Origin: Psychromonas antarctica
Lineage (GTDB): Bacteria; Pseudomonadota; Gammaproteobacteria; Enterobacterales; Psychromonadaceae
DNA: 58,676 nt
Direction: 5' to 3'
NCBI RefSeq assembly: GCF_022267535.1
Contig: NZ_JAHNZV010000017.1
Span: forward strand, 1 to 58,676
This document shows positions 43,700 to 50,513 of this stretch, in pieces. The notes below the pieces were generated by a model, which saw only the letters and a program-made list of their open reading frames with translations, did no database searches and was not told where the DNA came from. Within the stretch, counting starts at the first letter, position 1; the number at the start of each line of letters is the position of its first letter. Position numbers and translations under genes: made by a program.

Positions 43700-45261
43700 T
43701 TCAATAACTCCATTAGCCGTGAATGCAAGGGAGTATACACTTCCAGTATGGGGGTTTCATATTTATGGGCTAGCGCAATCGCCATATAAAGAGTTACTGC
43801 ACAGAACAGAAATAAAGTTAATACGATATTGCTCAGACGTCGTTTTTTTCTTTCTGAGCGATTCATATTATGGTTAATTCTGACCAGAAGTGGCACTTGG
43901 GAGAAGGCACTTAATTGCGAAGCAAATCTGATTTTATTATCCAACATTATTTTAGCTGTCGCCACTCCAAGTAAAAAGAGCAATCCGATAATCGGTCCTG
44001 CGATGAAAAAGTGCAGTAATCTTGGTCCCGAGGGCACTGTTGGATATACCGCCGGTTCCTGGACTTTATAATTTACTCCTTGTCCTTCGATATCGAGTAC
44101 CATCGAAAGCCGCGCTTTTTCTTTATTCGCAAGCATATCTTCATAGAGCTTTTTAATAACACTGTTATCACGGTTTAACTCCGAAAGCTCTGCTTGGTTA
44201 TTGGCTATTCGTTTACGTCGCTGATAAGCTTTTTCGAGCAAATCATCGAAGGCATTAAGCCTGTTTTTGATGGTGTTATGCTCTATCTGAGCTGTTGATA
44301 ATTTACTGCTAAGCTCTGTATAGAGAGGATTAAATTCGTTAGCAAAGCCCTCTTTCTCATTTTTTCTGTTTCCTAAGTCCGCGATGCTTTTTTTGGTATC
44401 ACTAATCTGATATTTTACTTCAACTACTTCAGGATAGTCACTTTTATAAGACAGTAGCAAATTATTAAGTTGTTGTTGTAACTGGTTTAGGCGAGTGTAG
44501 TAAAGCGCCGCTTCGTAATCATTTGACGAGAATTTATCTTGTGAGCGCAGTTGGTTTTTGAGTGATGAAATTCGTGTTTGACTCTCCATTTCTTGAATTT
44601 TCATATCTTCAATATCATTACGTAATGTCGAAATTCGTGACTCCACCTCGGTTTCTGTGCCGTCTAAGTGCGTTGACTTAAAGCTCTTTAATTTGTTTTC
44701 TGCTAGTAGTAATTGCTCTTTATAGCTGGAAACCTGTTGTTCAATAAAATTAAATGCACCACGGCTTTCATCTCTTTTTGTATTGGCGCTATCTTCAATG
44801 AATAAACGTACTACTTCATTTAATAGTCTAAATGTCAGATCCGCATCGTTATCCTGGTAGGAAATTTTTAAATAGTTGCCATTCAGTCCTTCAACTTGCA
44901 ATGCTTGACGTAATTCGGCAATTTTTTTATCGCGACTTGAGGGCGCTAGAAAAGCTGTTTTCCCGTAAATACGGACAATGACTTTGTTTAACTGTCGAGG
45001 TGAGTAGATAATATCTCGCACTTGCGACGTCCGACTTTCTTTTACCTTAGTGACCGCTGTCTGATCACCCAGCAGCGGTTTAATAATATTTTGGGTATCG
45101 GCATAAATAGTCACTTCACTATTAAACACTGAAGGTTTCATAATCCCTATTGCTAAAATACCAAAGCTGACTAACGTTGCAAGTAATGCCGATTTTAATT
45201 TGCGCAGAGATATTTCATGCCAGACGGCAATGATATATTTATAAATTTCATTAAGTTCCAT
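43696..45261 (-). CDS. Exopolysaccharide chain-length determinant (Wzz/GNVR)
   Basis: A 521-residue polysaccharide co-polymerase: N-terminal membrane segment (about 24-41), Wzz domain (PSVFNSEVTIYADTQNI), a long coiled coil (about 170-385) and a membrane segment near 415-435 followed by another near 480-500. It matches the PEP-CTERM chain-length family. It forms a translationally coupled pair with the CapB-like protein, and acts in the inner membrane/periplasm to set polymer length. Confidence 0.9.
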   Translation of the reverse strand: MELNEIYKYIIAVWHEISLRKLKSALLATLVSFGILAIGIMKPSVFNSEVTIYADTQNIIKPLLGDQTAVTKVKESRTSQVRDIIYSPRQLNKVIVRIYGKTAFLAPSSRDKKIAELRQALQVEGLNGNYLKISYQDNDADLTFRLLNEVVRLFIEDSANTKRDESRGAFNFIEQQVSSYKEQLLLAENKLKSFKSTHLDGTETEVESRISTLRNDIEDMKIQEMESQTRISSLKNQLRSQDKFSSNDYEAALYYTRLNQLQQQLNNLLLSYKSDYPEVVEVKYQISDTKKSIADLGNRKNEKEGFANEFNPLYTELSSKLSTAQIEHNTIKNRLNAFDDLLEKAYQRRKRIANNQAELSELNRDNSVIKKLYEDMLANKEKARLSMVLDIEGQGVNYKVQEPAVYPTVPSGPRLLHFFIAGPIIGLLFLLGVATAKIMLDNKIRFASQLSAFSQVPLLVRINHNMNRSERKKRRLSNIVLTLFLFCAVTLYMAIALAHKYETPILEVYTPLHSRLMELLK

Positions 45262-45263
45262 AT

Positions 45264-45869
45264 TTAAAAAACACTCTCTGGGACTATTAGGGTATCGGAT
45301 GGGCGTAACTCATAGTCAGTCGCTATGTCACCCTCTTTCATTATACTATCGAGTCTTACTGGGTAACGTTTTGTACCTTCATTTGTTTTACGGTATAAAA
45401 TGGCGTTATCGCCATCGGCAAAAACGCTTAATCCACCCGCCTGAAGAACTAAATCAAGTATAGTCATGCCCTGACGATAGGGAATAGTCTGTGGTAATTG
45501 TACTGCACCGGTGATACGCACACGGGTTAAAAATTCAGAGCTAATGGCTGAAGTTACGATGACGGTGACTTCGGGATTACGGATGAATTTATCGAGCTGA
45601 TCGCTGAGGTTGGCTGCCAAGTCTTCAGCTGTTGAGCCAACAGCTTTAGCATCACCTATTAAAGGAACTGAAATTTTTCCATCCGGCCGAACTGCGACAC
45701 TTAGAGATAAGTCAGGGTTTTGCCAAACATTAATATACAACTGATCGCCCGCGCCTATTTTGTATTCCGGGATCTCTTGTATTGCGATCCCTTGCTCAGG
45801 GCTATCAAGTGGTGTGGAACAGCTGGTTAGAAGACCAAAGCTTAACGCCAATAGTATTAATTTTCCCAT
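45264..45869 (-). CDS. Polysaccharide export lipoprotein (Wza-like)
   Basis: A 201-residue outer-membrane export protein of the exosortase locus. Seen: lipobox LLTSC (Cys17), the polysaccharide export domain EYKIGAGDQLYINVWQNPDLSLSVAVRPDGKISVPLIGD, then an SLBB domain with VRITGAVQLPQTIPYRQGMTILDLVLQAGG. It sits two bases ahead of the chain-length gene and 54 bases behind the prsK remnant. GAGAGGG precedes the ATG. Confidence 0.92.
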   Translation of the reverse strand: MGKLILLALSFGLLTSCSTPLDSPEQGIAIQEIPEYKIGAGDQLYINVWQNPDLSLSVAVRPDGKISVPLIGDAKAVGSTAEDLAANLSDQLDKFIRNPEVTVIVTSAISSEFLTRVRITGAVQLPQTIPYRQGMTILDLVLQAGGLSVFADGDNAILYRKTNEGTKRYPVRLDSIMKEGDIATDYELRPSDTLIVPESVF

Positions 45870-45923
45870 ATTACCCTCTCAGTTAGTTATATTAATATAT
45901 TCTGATAGTGATTCGGACTCTTT

Positions 45924-46175
45924 TTATGATGGTACCACATGAGCTAATTTTTCTTCGCCATTCAAAGGCAAATAAACAGAAAATTTAGTCCCTTTCCCGA
46001 TCCAACTCTCAACAAAAACTTCGCCTTGTAATGAATGTATTAGCTCTCTTATTTGGTACGCGCCGATCCCCATTCCCTTATTTTTTTTTGTACTGGAAAA
46101 GGGGGCAAACAATTGTTCATTAATAAAAGATTTATCCATCCCACAGCCTGTATCTTTGACTTCTAGCCACAATGC
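45924..46175 (-). pseudogene. prsK: prsK 3' part, cut off by the IS110 element
   Basis: About 84 codons encoding the end of the PrsK histidine kinase: ALWLEVKDTGCGMD (G1 box), LFAPFSSTK (F box), GMGIGAYQIRELI (G2 box) and GTKFSVYLPL. These ATP-binding boxes are essential and belong to the frame ending at 47384 on the far side of the insertion. No start codon with ribosome site is present, so it is unlikely to be made. Confidence 0.93.
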
Positions 46176-46224
46176 CTTGTATGGATAATAAACCCATTAA
46201 TTAATAATAATTAAACCAAGTTCG

Positions 46225-46400
46225 GGTAAAGTGAGGCCCAAGCTTTGGCTGCAACCAAAGCCTTCTTATACAACAGTTCGATAAATGCCAGGCTCCTCAT
46301 TTGAGAGACCGTTAACAAGAAAGAACGTTGTATAGGACTCCAAGCATTAAACTCGGATAGTCAACTGGGCCTCGAGCCCGAATAGCAAGGCGGAGTCAGC
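46225..46400 (+). ncRNA. Predicted bridge RNA of the IS110 element
   Basis: Three stem-loops in the order known for bridge RNAs. (1) GCTTTGG/CCAAAGC at 46242-46248 and 46255-46261. (2) A stem of TATACAAC plus GTTC (46267-46279) with GAAC plus GTTGTATA (46323-46334), enclosing a loop with AATGCC (46284-46289) and TAACAAG (46313-46319). (3) GACTCC/GGAGTC (46336-46341, 46392-46397) enclosing ATAGTCA (46357-46363), a GGGC/GCCC hairpin and CAAG (46386-46389). Loop 2 matches the prsK target (AATGCC-TTGTTA), loop 3 the joined element ends (ATAGTCA-CTTG). Ends of the RNA are approximate. Confidence 0.7.
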
Positions 46401-46405
46401 TTATT

Positions 46406-47365
46406 ATGAATTGCACAATTAATCAAAAAGAAATCACCATTGGTGTCGACACAGGCAAGCTTCAACTCGACATTTATATCAGACCGCTCGATATTTACTT
46501 CACGGTCACTAATGATGAAAAAGGCATTAAAGAAGCCATTAAAATAATCAAACCTCATAAACCAACACGTATTGTCATTGAAGCAACGGGTCGACTCGAA
46601 CATGCATTTATCATGGCATGCTCAGAGGCTAATTTACCCTTTACAGTCGCAAACCCAGCTCATGTCAAAAAGTTTGCTGGCGCGATTGGACGTAAAGCTA
46701 AAACCGATAAACTTGATGCTCAACTGATTGCTCATTATGGTGAGGCCATCAAACCTACATTATCCACATTAAAGCCCGAAAGCATGCAGTTAATGAGTGA
46801 TTTATTGTCCCGAAGAAGACAACTCATGACCATGCAAACCATGGAGAAGAACCGCCTTCAAATTATGCCAAAAGAAATATCGGGCATCATAAAACCTATC
46901 TTAACGGCGATTAAAAATCAGATAGAAAAAGTCGATGGAAAACTCAGTAAACTGATTGAAAGATGTGATGAATACAAAGCCAAAAACACGATCATTCAGA
47001 GTATGCCTGGCATCGGCCCAGTCGTTGCTTTCAACTTACTCAGTGATATGCCAGAGCTCGGTTATTTAACCAATAAAGAAGCAGCTTCGTTAATTGGAGT
47101 AGCACCATTTAATAAAGAAAGTGGCAGTTATGAAGGTCAAAGAAATATACGTGGTGGTCGTCACAAGATACGAACAGTAATGTACATGGCAATGATGTCA
47201 GCGATGCAATGTAATCCAGTTTTTAAAGCAACATATCAACGATTAGTAGCAGCAGGAAAACCAAAGAAAACAGCCATTATTGCCTGCGTTCGTAAGATGA
47301 TTATTATATTAAATTCAATGGTTAGAGATGGTGTCACGTGGGATCCTGAAATGAATCAGAATTAG
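46406..47365 (+). CDS. IS110-family DEDD transposase (bridge-RNA recombinase)
   Basis: A 319-residue recombinase. Seen: N-terminal RuvC-like DEDD domain with ITIGVDTGKLQLDIYI (Asp), VIEATGRLE (Glu) and KTDKLDAQLIAHYG (Asp-x2-Asp), a coiled-coil middle with RRRQLMTMQTMEKNRLQ, and a C-terminal Transposase_20 domain with MPGIGPVVAFNLLSDMPELG, EAASLIGVAPFNKESGSYEGQ and RGGRHKIRTVMYMA holding the likely catalytic serine region. No frameshift or stop. It cuts and rejoins DNA under RNA guidance in the characterised relative IS621. Confidence 0.95.
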   Translation: MNCTINQKEITIGVDTGKLQLDIYIRPLDIYFTVTNDEKGIKEAIKIIKPHKPTRIVIEATGRLEHAFIMACSEANLPFTVANPAHVKKFAGAIGRKAKTDKLDAQLIAHYGEAIKPTLSTLKPESMQLMSDLLSRRRQLMTMQTMEKNRLQIMPKEISGIIKPILTAIKNQIEKVDGKLSKLIERCDEYKAKNTIIQSMPGIGPVVAFNLLSDMPELGYLTNKEAASLIGVAPFNKESGSYEGQRNIRGGRHKIRTVMYMAMMSAMQCNPVFKATYQRLVAAGKPKKTAIIACVRKMIIILNSMVRDGVTWDPEMNQN

Positions 47366-47380
47366 TAATTGACACCATAG

Positions 47381-49210
47381 TCACTTGTTATCTGAGGTCA
47401 ATTTTATTGACACTCGGCCATTATCTTCTGTGGCGTCCTGTGCATTTTTGATTAAATGATAAAGTGCCATCTGTAATTTATCTTTATCGGCTACGACAAA
47501 GGCATTATCACCTTGCATGGATAATGTTGGAACTGGAAAACTAGACGCATTCATTTCAAGCGCATTTACTAGAAGCTCGTTCACATTGACAGGCTCTAGT
47601 TTACCATGAGGATTCCCTTGCAGCTTGACTAATAGTTGATCCATTTTTTCAACTGAATTAGTGATAGTCAATATTACATCATTGACAAATTCAGGCTTGT
47701 GCTTGAATTTTTCGGCATTGTTAACCATTAAACTCTGTTGTGCAATGAGGTTTTTGATATCGTGTATGGCGAACGCTGTGATCTTATTAAATAGATCAAA
47801 CTGTTGATTTTGAATTAGTTTTTTTGATGCCTGATAATGACTCAGATAACTGCCTATTTGCCTACCAGTTAGCTTTAATATGTCCAAATCTTCCCAGTTA
47901 ATGGCTGTATTGATTGATTCTTTGCAGAGAACCACAAAACCAATTAATCCTTGGTGATCATTTAATGGGACTATGGTCCATGCATTAGGTGTGTTAATAA
48001 ACCACTTAGGTAAGTATTTGTTGTTCTTTTTATCATGAACGCCGCTATATTTTGGCGCTTGAAATATCCATTCGTTTTCTGCCATAAGTTGTATAAAGTG
48101 GCTGTCATTTACTTCAATTGCGCGTGAGGGGGGTAATGTAAAGTTTTTTAAAGCCACGGGGGAATAAAACTGCTGGCCTTTAAGCCAAATACCGCCGCTA
48201 TGACAATTAAATAAAGTGGTGGCAGCTGAAAGTGCTATTTCATAGCCGTTATTATCTTTACGTTTTTGTGAAAGGAGGGCATCTAAATTTATCCATTGTT
48301 TTTGGTAATCGTATTTATTGCTAAAGAAGTTTTTGCTAATCCAAACAGTCACATATTGGCGATATCTCTCAACAAAGGAGAGTGCTGTTATGGCAAAGAT
48401 GGACATGACATAAATAAGTATTTGTGACACTTCTACCCATTCAATATGGAAAGAATTAACCACTACGCCCAAGAGGGCCATGCATATTAGGAATATTCCC
48501 GCCAATATAAAGCTGGCATTAAAAATAATGATTGAATGAGATAGTTTGAATTTACTCTCTTGTCGTTGCAGAAAGGGATAAATAATAATTCCCAATGCTA
48601 ATATTAACGAGGTTGCAGTGCTAATAATGCCTCGTGCATACCAAAGGTGACTGCTTTCGCTGCTAAATAATAACAGATTAGAAAAAACAAACATGTCATA
48701 ACCCAGTTGCGTAAGTGCAACGAGTGCCACTAATTTACTGACGCGGTTTGATTGGTCATGCCTAAGCAGCTGTTCGGCTATTACAATAGCAACTAAGCAC
48801 GCTCCGATTTTTATATAGAGCCATGATTTTGGCTGTATAAACTGAGCTAAGGCACTATTTAACCCTAACACCCAGATAGTTACGACGACAGTAATACTGA
48901 CGTATATAAGCGTTGACCAACGCATCGGCAGTCTGGTTGACTGCGAATACATTAGTAAGTAAACAAGCACTAAGCACCAACCCATATAACGTAATATTTC
49001 AAGCAATTGGAATTGATAACTTGATGATATATTGTAAAAAGGACTAGGTGTTAACGTAATATGCCAGAGGGCCGCGAACAAAGCTAAAAAACATAAACTA
49101 ATCTTTATTTTAACGTCTTTTATTTTAACCAATGCGGTCAACGCGAGTGCAATCTCGACACTCCCGATTAAATAATCAAACAGGGTTAGTTTTGAGTAAT
49201 AATCCATCAT
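47381..49210 (-). pseudogene. prsK: prsK 5' part: sensor kinase lacking its ATP-binding boxes
   Basis: The first 609 codons of the PEP-CTERM histidine kinase PrsK; its TGA stop comes from the IS110 end. Seen: about nine membrane helices (5-290), a GAF-like domain (about 315-460), the H-box FAIHDIKNLIAQQS, and the N-box LYHLIKNAQDATE near the end. The G1, F and G2 boxes lie beyond the insertion. The product can still sit in the membrane and perhaps dimerise but cannot bind ATP normally. Together with the 3' part the gene had about 690 codons, the family length. Confidence 0.93.
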
Positions 49211-49262
49211 CGATGTTTCACTATCCTTATCTGTGCATATGCAATATTTACGTATCGAGGTT

Positions 49263-50513
49263 CTATAATATTCCGCGTGTATCGATCACCACTTTTGTTG
49301 AAAACTGGGTTTTATCTGCCATTTTAAATTGTTTATGATCTACAAGTATGACAATCACATTAGCAATCGCTAAGGCGGTTTCTAAGCTTGTAAACTCAAC
49401 ACCTAATTGTGTTAAATGTGCAGGGTATGATTTCACATTTGGTTCTACTGCAATTAGTCTTCCTATTTTTTTACTGGCAAGGTGCTCAACAATGTGCAGT
49501 GCAGGGCTTTCTCGAAGATCGTCAATATCAGCTTTAAATGCAAGCCCTAAGCAAGCAATAACGGGACGCTTAAACTCATCAGCGGCGTGCATTATTTGTT
49601 CAATTACGTGGAAAGGTTTGTGATCATTGATCAAACGGGCTTGCTTGATAAGTTGTGCTTCTTTAGGACAACTATCAACAATAAACCAGGGGTCAACTGC
49701 AATACAATGTCCACCAACACCAGGGCCTGGATTTAAAATATTGACGCGGGGGTGACGGTTGGATAATTTTATTAATTCCCAGACATTTATTTGCAATTTA
49801 TCGCAAATGATAGAGATCTCATTTGCAAATGCAATATTTACATCACGAAATGAATTTTCAGTGAGTTTAGACATTTCAGCAGTACGTGCATTAGTCACTA
49901 TGCATTCACCGTGCACAAAAGTACGGTACAGCTCAACAGCTTTAGTACTGCAGCTTTTGCTCATCCCACCAATCACGCGATCATTTGAGACCAACTCTCT
50001 TAATACATATCCAGGTAACACACGCTCTGGGCAATATGCGACATTGATATCTGCCGCATCGCCTCTATTCTGTGGAAAGGAGAGATCTGGGCGTGCTTTT
50101 GCTAGCCAAGTAGCTAATTTTTCAGTCGTGCCAACAGGCGATGTCGACTCAAGAATGACGAGGTTACCCTTTGCAAGTACGGGGGCTATTGTGTTGGCTG
50201 CTGATTCAATATAACTGAGATCTGGTTGGTGGCTATCATCATCACTATGAATAAAAGGGGTTGGCACAGCAATTATAAATACGTCAGCGGGTTCAGCCGT
50301 GGTTACTGCGCGCAAATTGCCAGTAGAAACAACACTGCGAACAACAATATCGAGATCTGGCTCGACAATATGAATTTTCCCAGCATTAACAATATCAACT
50401 GCATTTTGATTCACTTCGACCCCAACCACATTCATACCACGAGAAGCAATAATTGCAGCTGTAGGGAGCCCTATATAACCGAGGCCAATCACTGATACTT
50501 TTTTCAACGTCAT
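49263..50513 (-). CDS. wecC: UDP-N-acetyl-D-mannosamine dehydrogenase
   Basis: Oxidises UDP-ManNAc twice at C6 to UDP-ManNAcA with NAD+. The 416 residues hold the NAD-binding VIGLGYIGLPTAA (about 8-20), EVNQNAVDIVNAG, AVPTPF, the SPVGTTEKLA loop, the catalytic-cysteine motif GPGVGGHCIAVDPWF, and CLGLAFKADIDDLRESPAL. Closely follows wecB (28 bases), so the cluster supplies ManNAcA, a likely acidic sugar of the exopolysaccharide. Confidence 0.95.
   Translation of the reverse strand: MTLKKVSVIGLGYIGLPTAAIIASRGMNVVGVEVNQNAVDIVNAGKIHIVEPDLDIVVRSVVSTGNLRAVTTAEPADVFIIAVPTPFIHSDDDSHQPDLSYIESAANTIAPVLAKGNLVILESTSPVGTTEKLATWLAKARPDLSFPQNRGDAADINVAYCPERVLPGYVLRELVSNDRVIGGMSKSCSTKAVELYRTFVHGECIVTNARTAEMSKLTENSFRDVNIAFANEISIICDKLQINVWELIKLSNRHPRVNILNPGPGVGGHCIAVDPWFIVDSCPKEAQLIKQARLINDHKPFHVIEQIMHAADEFKRPVIACLGLAFKADIDDLRESPALHIVEHLASKKIGRLIAVEPNVKSYPAHLTQLGVEFTSLETALAIANVIVILVDHKQFKMADKTQFSTKVVIDTRGIL

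Follow-up and report, generated by a model that had tools for sequence, protein, structure and literature searches.

An IS110-group insertion sequence in prsK of Psychromonas antarctica carries a predicted bridge RNA, and guides of its lineage appear to be aimed at integron attC sites

Bridge RNAs have been predicted for 85.7% of IS110 elements (PMC11208160), and promoters formed at the circle junction have been described for the element family (PMC11208160, PMC11187229). In IS621, serine 241 of the recombinase is catalytic (PMC11208158). ISKpn4 and ISPst6, both of the IS1111 group, are known to target integron attC sites (PMC11187229), and such elements are recognized by an RNA region downstream of the transposase and by subterminal inverted repeats of 7–17 bp (PMC11187229, PMC11208160). 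IS110 elements have been listed in Shewanella integrons, where no IS was found to interrupt attC (PMC9229058), an IS110 in attC is mentioned but the element, ISPa21, belongs to the IS1111 group (PMC11616780), and IS110 elements of the IS1111 group are mentioned in integrons (PMC11089894). A search of the open-access literature, as far as its text was available, returned no account of an IS110-type element that has its bridge RNA upstream and targets attC. Here, we analyzed a 58,676-nt stretch of Psychromonas antarctica DNA (the window) that contains one such candidate. With a probability of roughly 0.86, we read it as an IS110-group, IS621-type element with a left-end bridge RNA whose guides are directed to the attC sites of integrons, the copy in prsK lying on a look-alike. 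The attC aim of the lineage and the look-alike nature of prsK were not visible to the first-pass annotation, a single-sequence reading of the window that had proposed a bridge RNA at this locus.

The element and its site comprise the following features.

46176..47385, + strand: IS110-group insertion sequence, core to core including both CT copies, 1210 bp; ends agree with those of relatives
46406..47365, + strand: IS110 recombinase, 319 aa (NCBIfam NF033542, Pfam DEDD_Tnp_IS110 and Transposase_20)
45924..49210, − strand: prsK, split by the element into ORF pieces 47381–49210 and 45924–46172 (TIGR02916)
46169..46175, + strand: left target half ACAATGC, host prsK
47386..47392, + strand: right target half TGTTATC, host prsK
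47377..47385, + strand: left donor half ATAGTCA plus core CT

The left junction passes from CACAATGC into CTTGTATGG and the right junction from ATAGTCA into CTTGTTATC; joined as a circle, the ends read TTGACACCATAGTCACTTGTATGGATAAT. The two prsK pieces matched positions 16–607 and 614–679 of the TIGR02916 profile. In intact prsK homologues of the genus, which run across the site, the aligned ends are separated by one to a few codons, so that no long stretch of target has been lost, yet these homologues have diverged at the insertion site (identity 72% at best). Through the insertion, prsK loses roughly its last 70 residues. PrsK is the sensor kinase belonging to the XrtA/PEP-CTERM exopolysaccharide system, whose export and chain-length proteins have matches among the adjoining genes. 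A second, partial copy of the element, likewise ending CTTGTTAG, was found on another contig of the same genome (C262).

The recombinase scored 200.7 bits against the model for IS110 family RNA-guided transposases (NF033542; cut-off 140), its closest relatives in the genome-collection scan occurred in Psychromonas records, and the only solved relatives found by sequence were IS621 and ISCro4. Residues D15, E59, D101, D104, and S239 line up with the IS621 motifs, and we take them to be the catalytic residues of the DEDD recombinase and its serine. The element thus combines a DEDD recombinase bearing a C-terminal Transposase_20 domain, its serine aligned to the IS621 motif, with a longer non-coding region upstream (approximately 230 bp 5′ of the gene, compared with 20 bp or so 3′ of it) and short or no subterminal inverted repeats, as in the IS110 group. 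The longest inverted match between the terminal 70 bases was 5 bp (CCATA/TATGG).

Within the upstream region, the predicted bridge RNA is laid out as follows.

46242..46261, + strand: 5′ stem-loop; 6 of 7 pairs changed on both sides among relatives
46267..46334, + strand: target-binding loop with a 12-pair stem; 8 of 12 stem pairs changed on both sides
46282..46290, + strand: putative left target guide TAAATGCCA, a 6/9 match to ACAATGCCT
46313..46319, + strand: putative right target guide TAACAAG, complement of CTTGTTA; the least variable segment
46351..46396, + strand: donor-binding loop; closing stem ACTC 46351–46354 / GAGT 46393–46396
46357..46363, + strand: putative left donor guide ATAGTCA, same as the right end 47377–47383
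46381..46389, + strand: putative right donor guide AATAGCAAG, with discontiguous pairing to donor CTTGTAT

All strings quoted by the first-pass annotation were present, among them AATGCC (46284–46289), the GGGC/GCCC hairpin (46367–46379), GCAAG (46385–46389), and ATAGTCA, which occurs in the RNA (46357–46363) and again at the right end (47377–47383). The target stem joins TATACAACaGTTC (46267–46279) to GAACGTTGTATA (46323–46334) in 12 pairs with one bulged A, exactly as had been described. The 225-nt left end folded with a z score of −4.06, and equal stability was reached in 0 of 200 shuffles. Of the three stem-loops read from the single sequence, the 5′ stem-loop and the target stem formed in the minimum-energy fold; the donor loop as drawn was absent from it, and support for this loop comes from the alignment of relatives instead. 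A donor loop does lie at the proposed third stem, but its closing stem is probably ACTC/GAGT, paired in 95.2% of cells across 47 aligned sequences versus 80.5% for the GACTCC/GGAGTC originally suggested; RNAalifold picks CTC/GAG there. With ACTC/GAGT, the donor guide begins two bases (GG) beyond the stem, as it does in IS621, whose linker has been published as G121–G122 (PMC11208158).

When the guides of the window copy were compared with random sites, chance probabilities were approximately 0.012 for the left-target run of 6 and 0.0016 for the right-target run of 7, and the claim that AATGCC and TAACAAG match the rebuilt prsK target held. The match of ATAGTCA to the left donor half (a run of 7, p ~0.0017) was borne out as well. 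The proposed CAAG/CTTG donor pairing is present, but a right-donor run of 4 (p ~0.18) is uninformative by itself. The annotation had also named CTTG(T) as the shared core; CTTG is there, and homology with IS621 makes CT, within this string, the most likely core dinucleotide. The two bases that follow GCAAG (GC) could pair with the GC of the target in the manner of a handshake guide. The handshake base of the target loop fitted the donor in 18 of 34 copies compared with 11.0 under permutation (81 of 10,000 permutations as high), and the window copy is without this pairing. An Rfam search of 44000–50000 at E <= 10 returned no curated family and two sub-threshold snoRNA matches, both outside the element.

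The element ends also supply the two halves of a predicted promoter.

46184..46189, + strand: predicted −10 box GATAAT, left end; part of a joined-end motif in relatives
47369..47374, + strand: predicted −35 box TTGACA, right end

Joining the right end of the window copy to its left end yields TTGACA-N17-GATAAT, and TTGAC[AG]-N17-[GT]ATA[AG]T was found at the joined ends of 34 of the 35 copies in which both ends could be parsed. None of those copies had TTGAC[AG] at the same spacing in its integrated left flank. This pattern suggests a sigma-70-like promoter that would arise only at the circle junction and from which transcription could start.

To compare relatives, we drew on 20 loci from one genome-collection scan, 24 genomes of the genus (own genome included; 13 with a match), 394 genomes of the order, of which 36 matched at E <= 1e-60, and additional regions. 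Copies that shared an RNA but occupied other sites (e.g., L074, L079, and L080) were merged, leaving 49 distinct RNA bodies, of which the window copy is L001. The RNA alignment consisted of the window copy and 46 relatives (47 sequences; L016 and L059 excluded). For the left-guide test, 35 of the 49 were usable; L004, L005, L011, L013, L016, L052, L053, L059, L064, L065, L066, L067, L068, and L069 were set aside because the left end was truncated or irregular or the guide anchor was missing.

Across the 47 sequences, 95.9% of the cells in the named structure were paired, and 17 of 30 pairs had changed on both sides. None of 500 shuffles reached the observed score on any of five measures and slid controls were all lower; since the aligned sequences are related and not independent, the figures from these controls are no probabilities. 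The target and donor loops were thus kept with compensatory changes in homologous left ends, where a lack of conserved structure would have spoken against the original proposal. The covariation sits mostly in the 5′ stem-loop and the target stem; the donor-loop stem is nearly invariant, and its structure is therefore weakly tested. Column entropy over 13 RNA segments was highest in the left guide (mean 1.39 bits) and lowest in the right guide (0.11). One relative (L060:776-972) has approximately 15 additional bases in the donor-loop hairpin and retains the guides.

We then scored the nine left-guide bases of each copy against its own left flank, with offsets of 0 to 2 permitted in the permuted pairs just as in the true ones. 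The 35 copies matched at a mean of 6.6 of 9 bases compared with 4.77 for permuted pairs (0 of 50,000 as high). Permutations and shuffles disregard relatedness, for which the merging of identical guides compensates in part only; among the 23 unique guide–flank pairs the means were 6.70 and 4.45, and among the 11 unique pairs outside the common TTRA guide class 7.0 and 4.29 (0 of 50,000 each). Held to the strict register, the 23 pairs averaged 4.70 versus 3.38 (0 of 20,000), with 9/9 matches in L007 and L055 and 8/9 in L003, L009, L010, and L070. Poor matches (best 3 to 5 of 9) were found in L006, L037, L008, L028, L050, and L062, and the window copy itself matched at only 6 of 9. The flanks of other copies, to which the first-pass annotation had pointed as a check, were accordingly matched better by their own guides than by the guides of other copies. 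In many Vibrio-type copies (L012, L049, L058, L075, and L076), the best left-guide fit lies one base farther from the core, leaving one core-adjacent target base unpaired. A sub-lineage of three copies (L055, L070, and L072) carries the left guide [TC]ATCCTTAT and occupies sites close to ATCC[TC]TAT. These sites differ from the usual attC box, and the sub-lineage may have been retargeted naturally.

The donor side behaved similarly. Donor base 7 equaled base 7 of the left donor guide in 32 of 34 copies, spread over four bases (T 13, A 11, G 7, and C 1), and the last base of the right target guide fitted the donor core in 32 of 34. Donor class and guide class disagreed in L053 and L058 (base 7) and in L016 and L058 (core); these mismatches look like an exchange of ends or RNA among related elements. 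Guides therefore fit target and donor and vary along with them, which, together with the structural covariation, supports the IS621-type bridge RNA proposed from the single sequence.

The relatives shared a characteristic setting. Among 58 distinct right flanks, including that of L102, which is probably a chance match, host DNA after CTTG or TTTG started with TTA in 54. An opposite-strand open frame of at least 60 codons ended at most 12 nt away in 31 of 58 flanks, and in 17 it stopped exactly at that TTA (stop codon TAA); the corresponding control values were 78 of 4000 random positions (2.0%) and 57 of 372 other TTGTTA sites in the same loci (15%). Of 31 rejoined sites, 11 repeated within their own loci (mostly 2–5 kb) at E <= 2e-4, a count from which near-identical matches of L015, L055, and L063 were left out as the sites themselves; one locus (L051) held four more stretches of ~95–105 nt resembling its rejoined site. 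In four genomes (G222, G123, G288, and G360), the distance between a copy and an integron integrase gene was 2.7, 5.6, 8.6, and 8.8 kb, respectively. In a hand-picked set of 10 copy-bearing genomes, an integrase above the model's cut-off was detected in seven and not in G369, G245, and G043; none of 14 control genomes had one. On a Vibrio alginolyticus plasmid, copies are interleaved with small genes that we read as cassettes. The same plasmid (L113:3937-11737) shows a tandem unit of ~3.05 kb in which a gene trio recurs three times and the IS110 gene twice, reflecting either true amplification or an assembly effect.

Tests for inverted attC arms gave p <= 0.05 at 2 of 31 sites and, in a second version, at 8 of 30 (five of them at p <= 0.01). 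The arm spacer probably weakens these tests, and we relied instead on stop-codon position, repeats, and integrase distance. By these measures, many relatives occupy a fixed place in attC, a statement that does not extend to the window copy and for which the inverted-arm tests are weak. The pattern suggests that the guides of the lineage are directed to the end of integron attC that adjoins the cassette gene, and that they drive the choice of site.

The window copy lies outside an integron, in prsK. Its genome encodes an integron integrase (intI, C13:70832-71770; 405.9 bits, cut-off 265), and a repeat scan of 13 kb around this gene revealed no clear attC array. On a 4.6-kb contig of the same genome (C69, locus L137), several attC-like sites follow one another at intervals of a few hundred bases. 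One of these, CAATGCCTTGTTAT, is unoccupied and lies directly behind the stop of a 146-codon open frame, and its 14 bases are common to the prsK target. Since 14 bases are shared with an attC-like site, it looks as if the element landed in prsK at an attC look-alike that its guides match. Genome-wide, AATGCCTTGTTA had two exact sites (C69 and C284) and 47 with one mismatch, while the pattern read backwards had 14 in all; no attC-like array was found around the exact site on C284.

Could the element have reached these places without any aim of its own? Many copies do sit within cassette-like arrays, as expected if the integron integrase moved the element along with cassettes and the RNA did not aim at attC. 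Such a passenger would hardly have its ends placed uniformly between CTTG or TTTG and a following TTA in nearly all right flanks (54/58) across many genomes, nor would its left guide track the individual flank, and the window copy lies outside an integron yet on an attC-like 14-mer; we therefore reject this reading as highly improbable. We consider it just as implausible that the left end is merely a structured mRNA leader, with the recombinase itself picking the site and the guide matches reflecting chance and shared ancestry. It is true that the sequences are related, that the role of the RNA is read from sequence, and that some copies match poorly. Left-guide matches are copy-specific, however, donor base 7 co-varies across four bases, and the layout is that of IS621, for which a bridge RNA has been experimentally proven (PMC11208160), and on these grounds the leader-only reading was also rejected.

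Somewhat more weight, though still little, goes to the view that the element has no specificity for attC and recognizes short targets of the TTGTTA type, whose abundance in integrons would be a coincidence. The window copy and L055, L070, and L072 are at sites without recognized attC features, and the arm-pairing tests were weak, both of which would fit this view. Yet an opposite-strand stop lies close by in 31 of 58 flanks, as against 15% of the remaining TTGTTA sites of these loci, the sites repeat and have an integrase nearby, and TTRA-type left guides match the attC box, making a lack of attC specificity unlikely.

We return to the preferred reading, an IS621-type element with a guiding bridge RNA. 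The anatomy, structural covariation, guide agreement with flanks and donor ends, and junction promoter sequence shown here, along with the position of many relatives relative to stop codons, repeats, and integrase, are consistent with the following course, in which we infer transcription, RNA binding, strand exchange, and the guides as the cause of site choice. Circularization would join the ends and bring the −35 box from the right end to the −10 box from the left end, and the resulting promoter would transcribe the bridge RNA and the recombinase. The donor loop would then pair with the joined element ends and the recombinase swap strands at the CT core. On the target, the fixed right guide would read the stop codon and CAAG, whereas the fast-changing left guide would track the adjoining box; in the window copy, the same program may have been applied to the prsK look-alike.

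Going further, we find it reasonably plausible, with appreciable room for doubt, that this IS110/IS621-type lineage is an integron specialist that arose separately from the IS1111-attC elements. It would hold a fixed 7-nt right guide at the boundary between cassette stop and attC and a fast-evolving left guide on the adjoining box, forming dozens of natural guide–target pairs, probably freezing cassettes, and occasionally spilling over to look-alikes such as prsK. The lineage would offer a natural, replicated test of bridge-RNA targeting, in which left guides differ with the sites and the right guide is fixed, and would link integrons to a second, differently built family of RNA-guided elements. 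It also supplies a recombinase whose right guide is naturally 7 nt long; in published assays, extension of the right guide raised the efficiency of IS621 with non-CT cores (PMC11208160).

Among known systems, IS621 is alike in its left-end RNA with a 5′ stem-loop, target loop, and donor loop, a 9-nt left guide, the order of left guide 5′ and right guide 3′ within each loop, and a junction promoter (PMC11208160, PMC11208158); its recombinase aligned over nearly the full length, and the left end of the IS621 copy that we retrieved starts CT-TGTAT, like that of the window copy. The IS621 right donor guide ATTTGCAAG was identical in 14 of the 47 aligned RNAs, the window form ATAGCAAG occurred in 15, and the other 18 were variants. 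These counts come from reading the shared donor-guide string directly, as a whole-RNA alignment with IS621 was not meaningful. The two differ in that the right target guide is 4 nt in IS621 and 7 nt here, the target is ATCAGGCCTAC there and attC-like here, the target-loop hairpins are unlike, and the window copy has ATAGCAAG instead of ATTTGCAAG and the 5-bp subterminal repeat CCATA/TATGG. ISEc32, an IS110 of enterobacterial plasmids, was the nearest named IS110 element among the matches listed, at 37% identity. The IS1111-attC elements ISKpn4 and ISPst6, guided by a seekRNA, resemble the present lineage as RNA-guided DEDD elements targeting one attC end, and differ in having the RNA region downstream of the transposase, longer subterminal inverted repeats, and the two target-matching stretches in reverse order (PMC11187229). 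With its RNA region upstream and a subterminal inverted repeat of at most 5 bp, the element was rejected as a member of that group. The first-pass annotation had called the bridge RNA apparently undescribed, which stands for this particular element within the literature searched and not for the class, given that 85.7% of IS110 elements have such predictions in print. What appears to be new here, judging from the loci compared, is the presence of many IS110-type bridge-RNA relatives at attC sites, behind opposite-strand stop codons.
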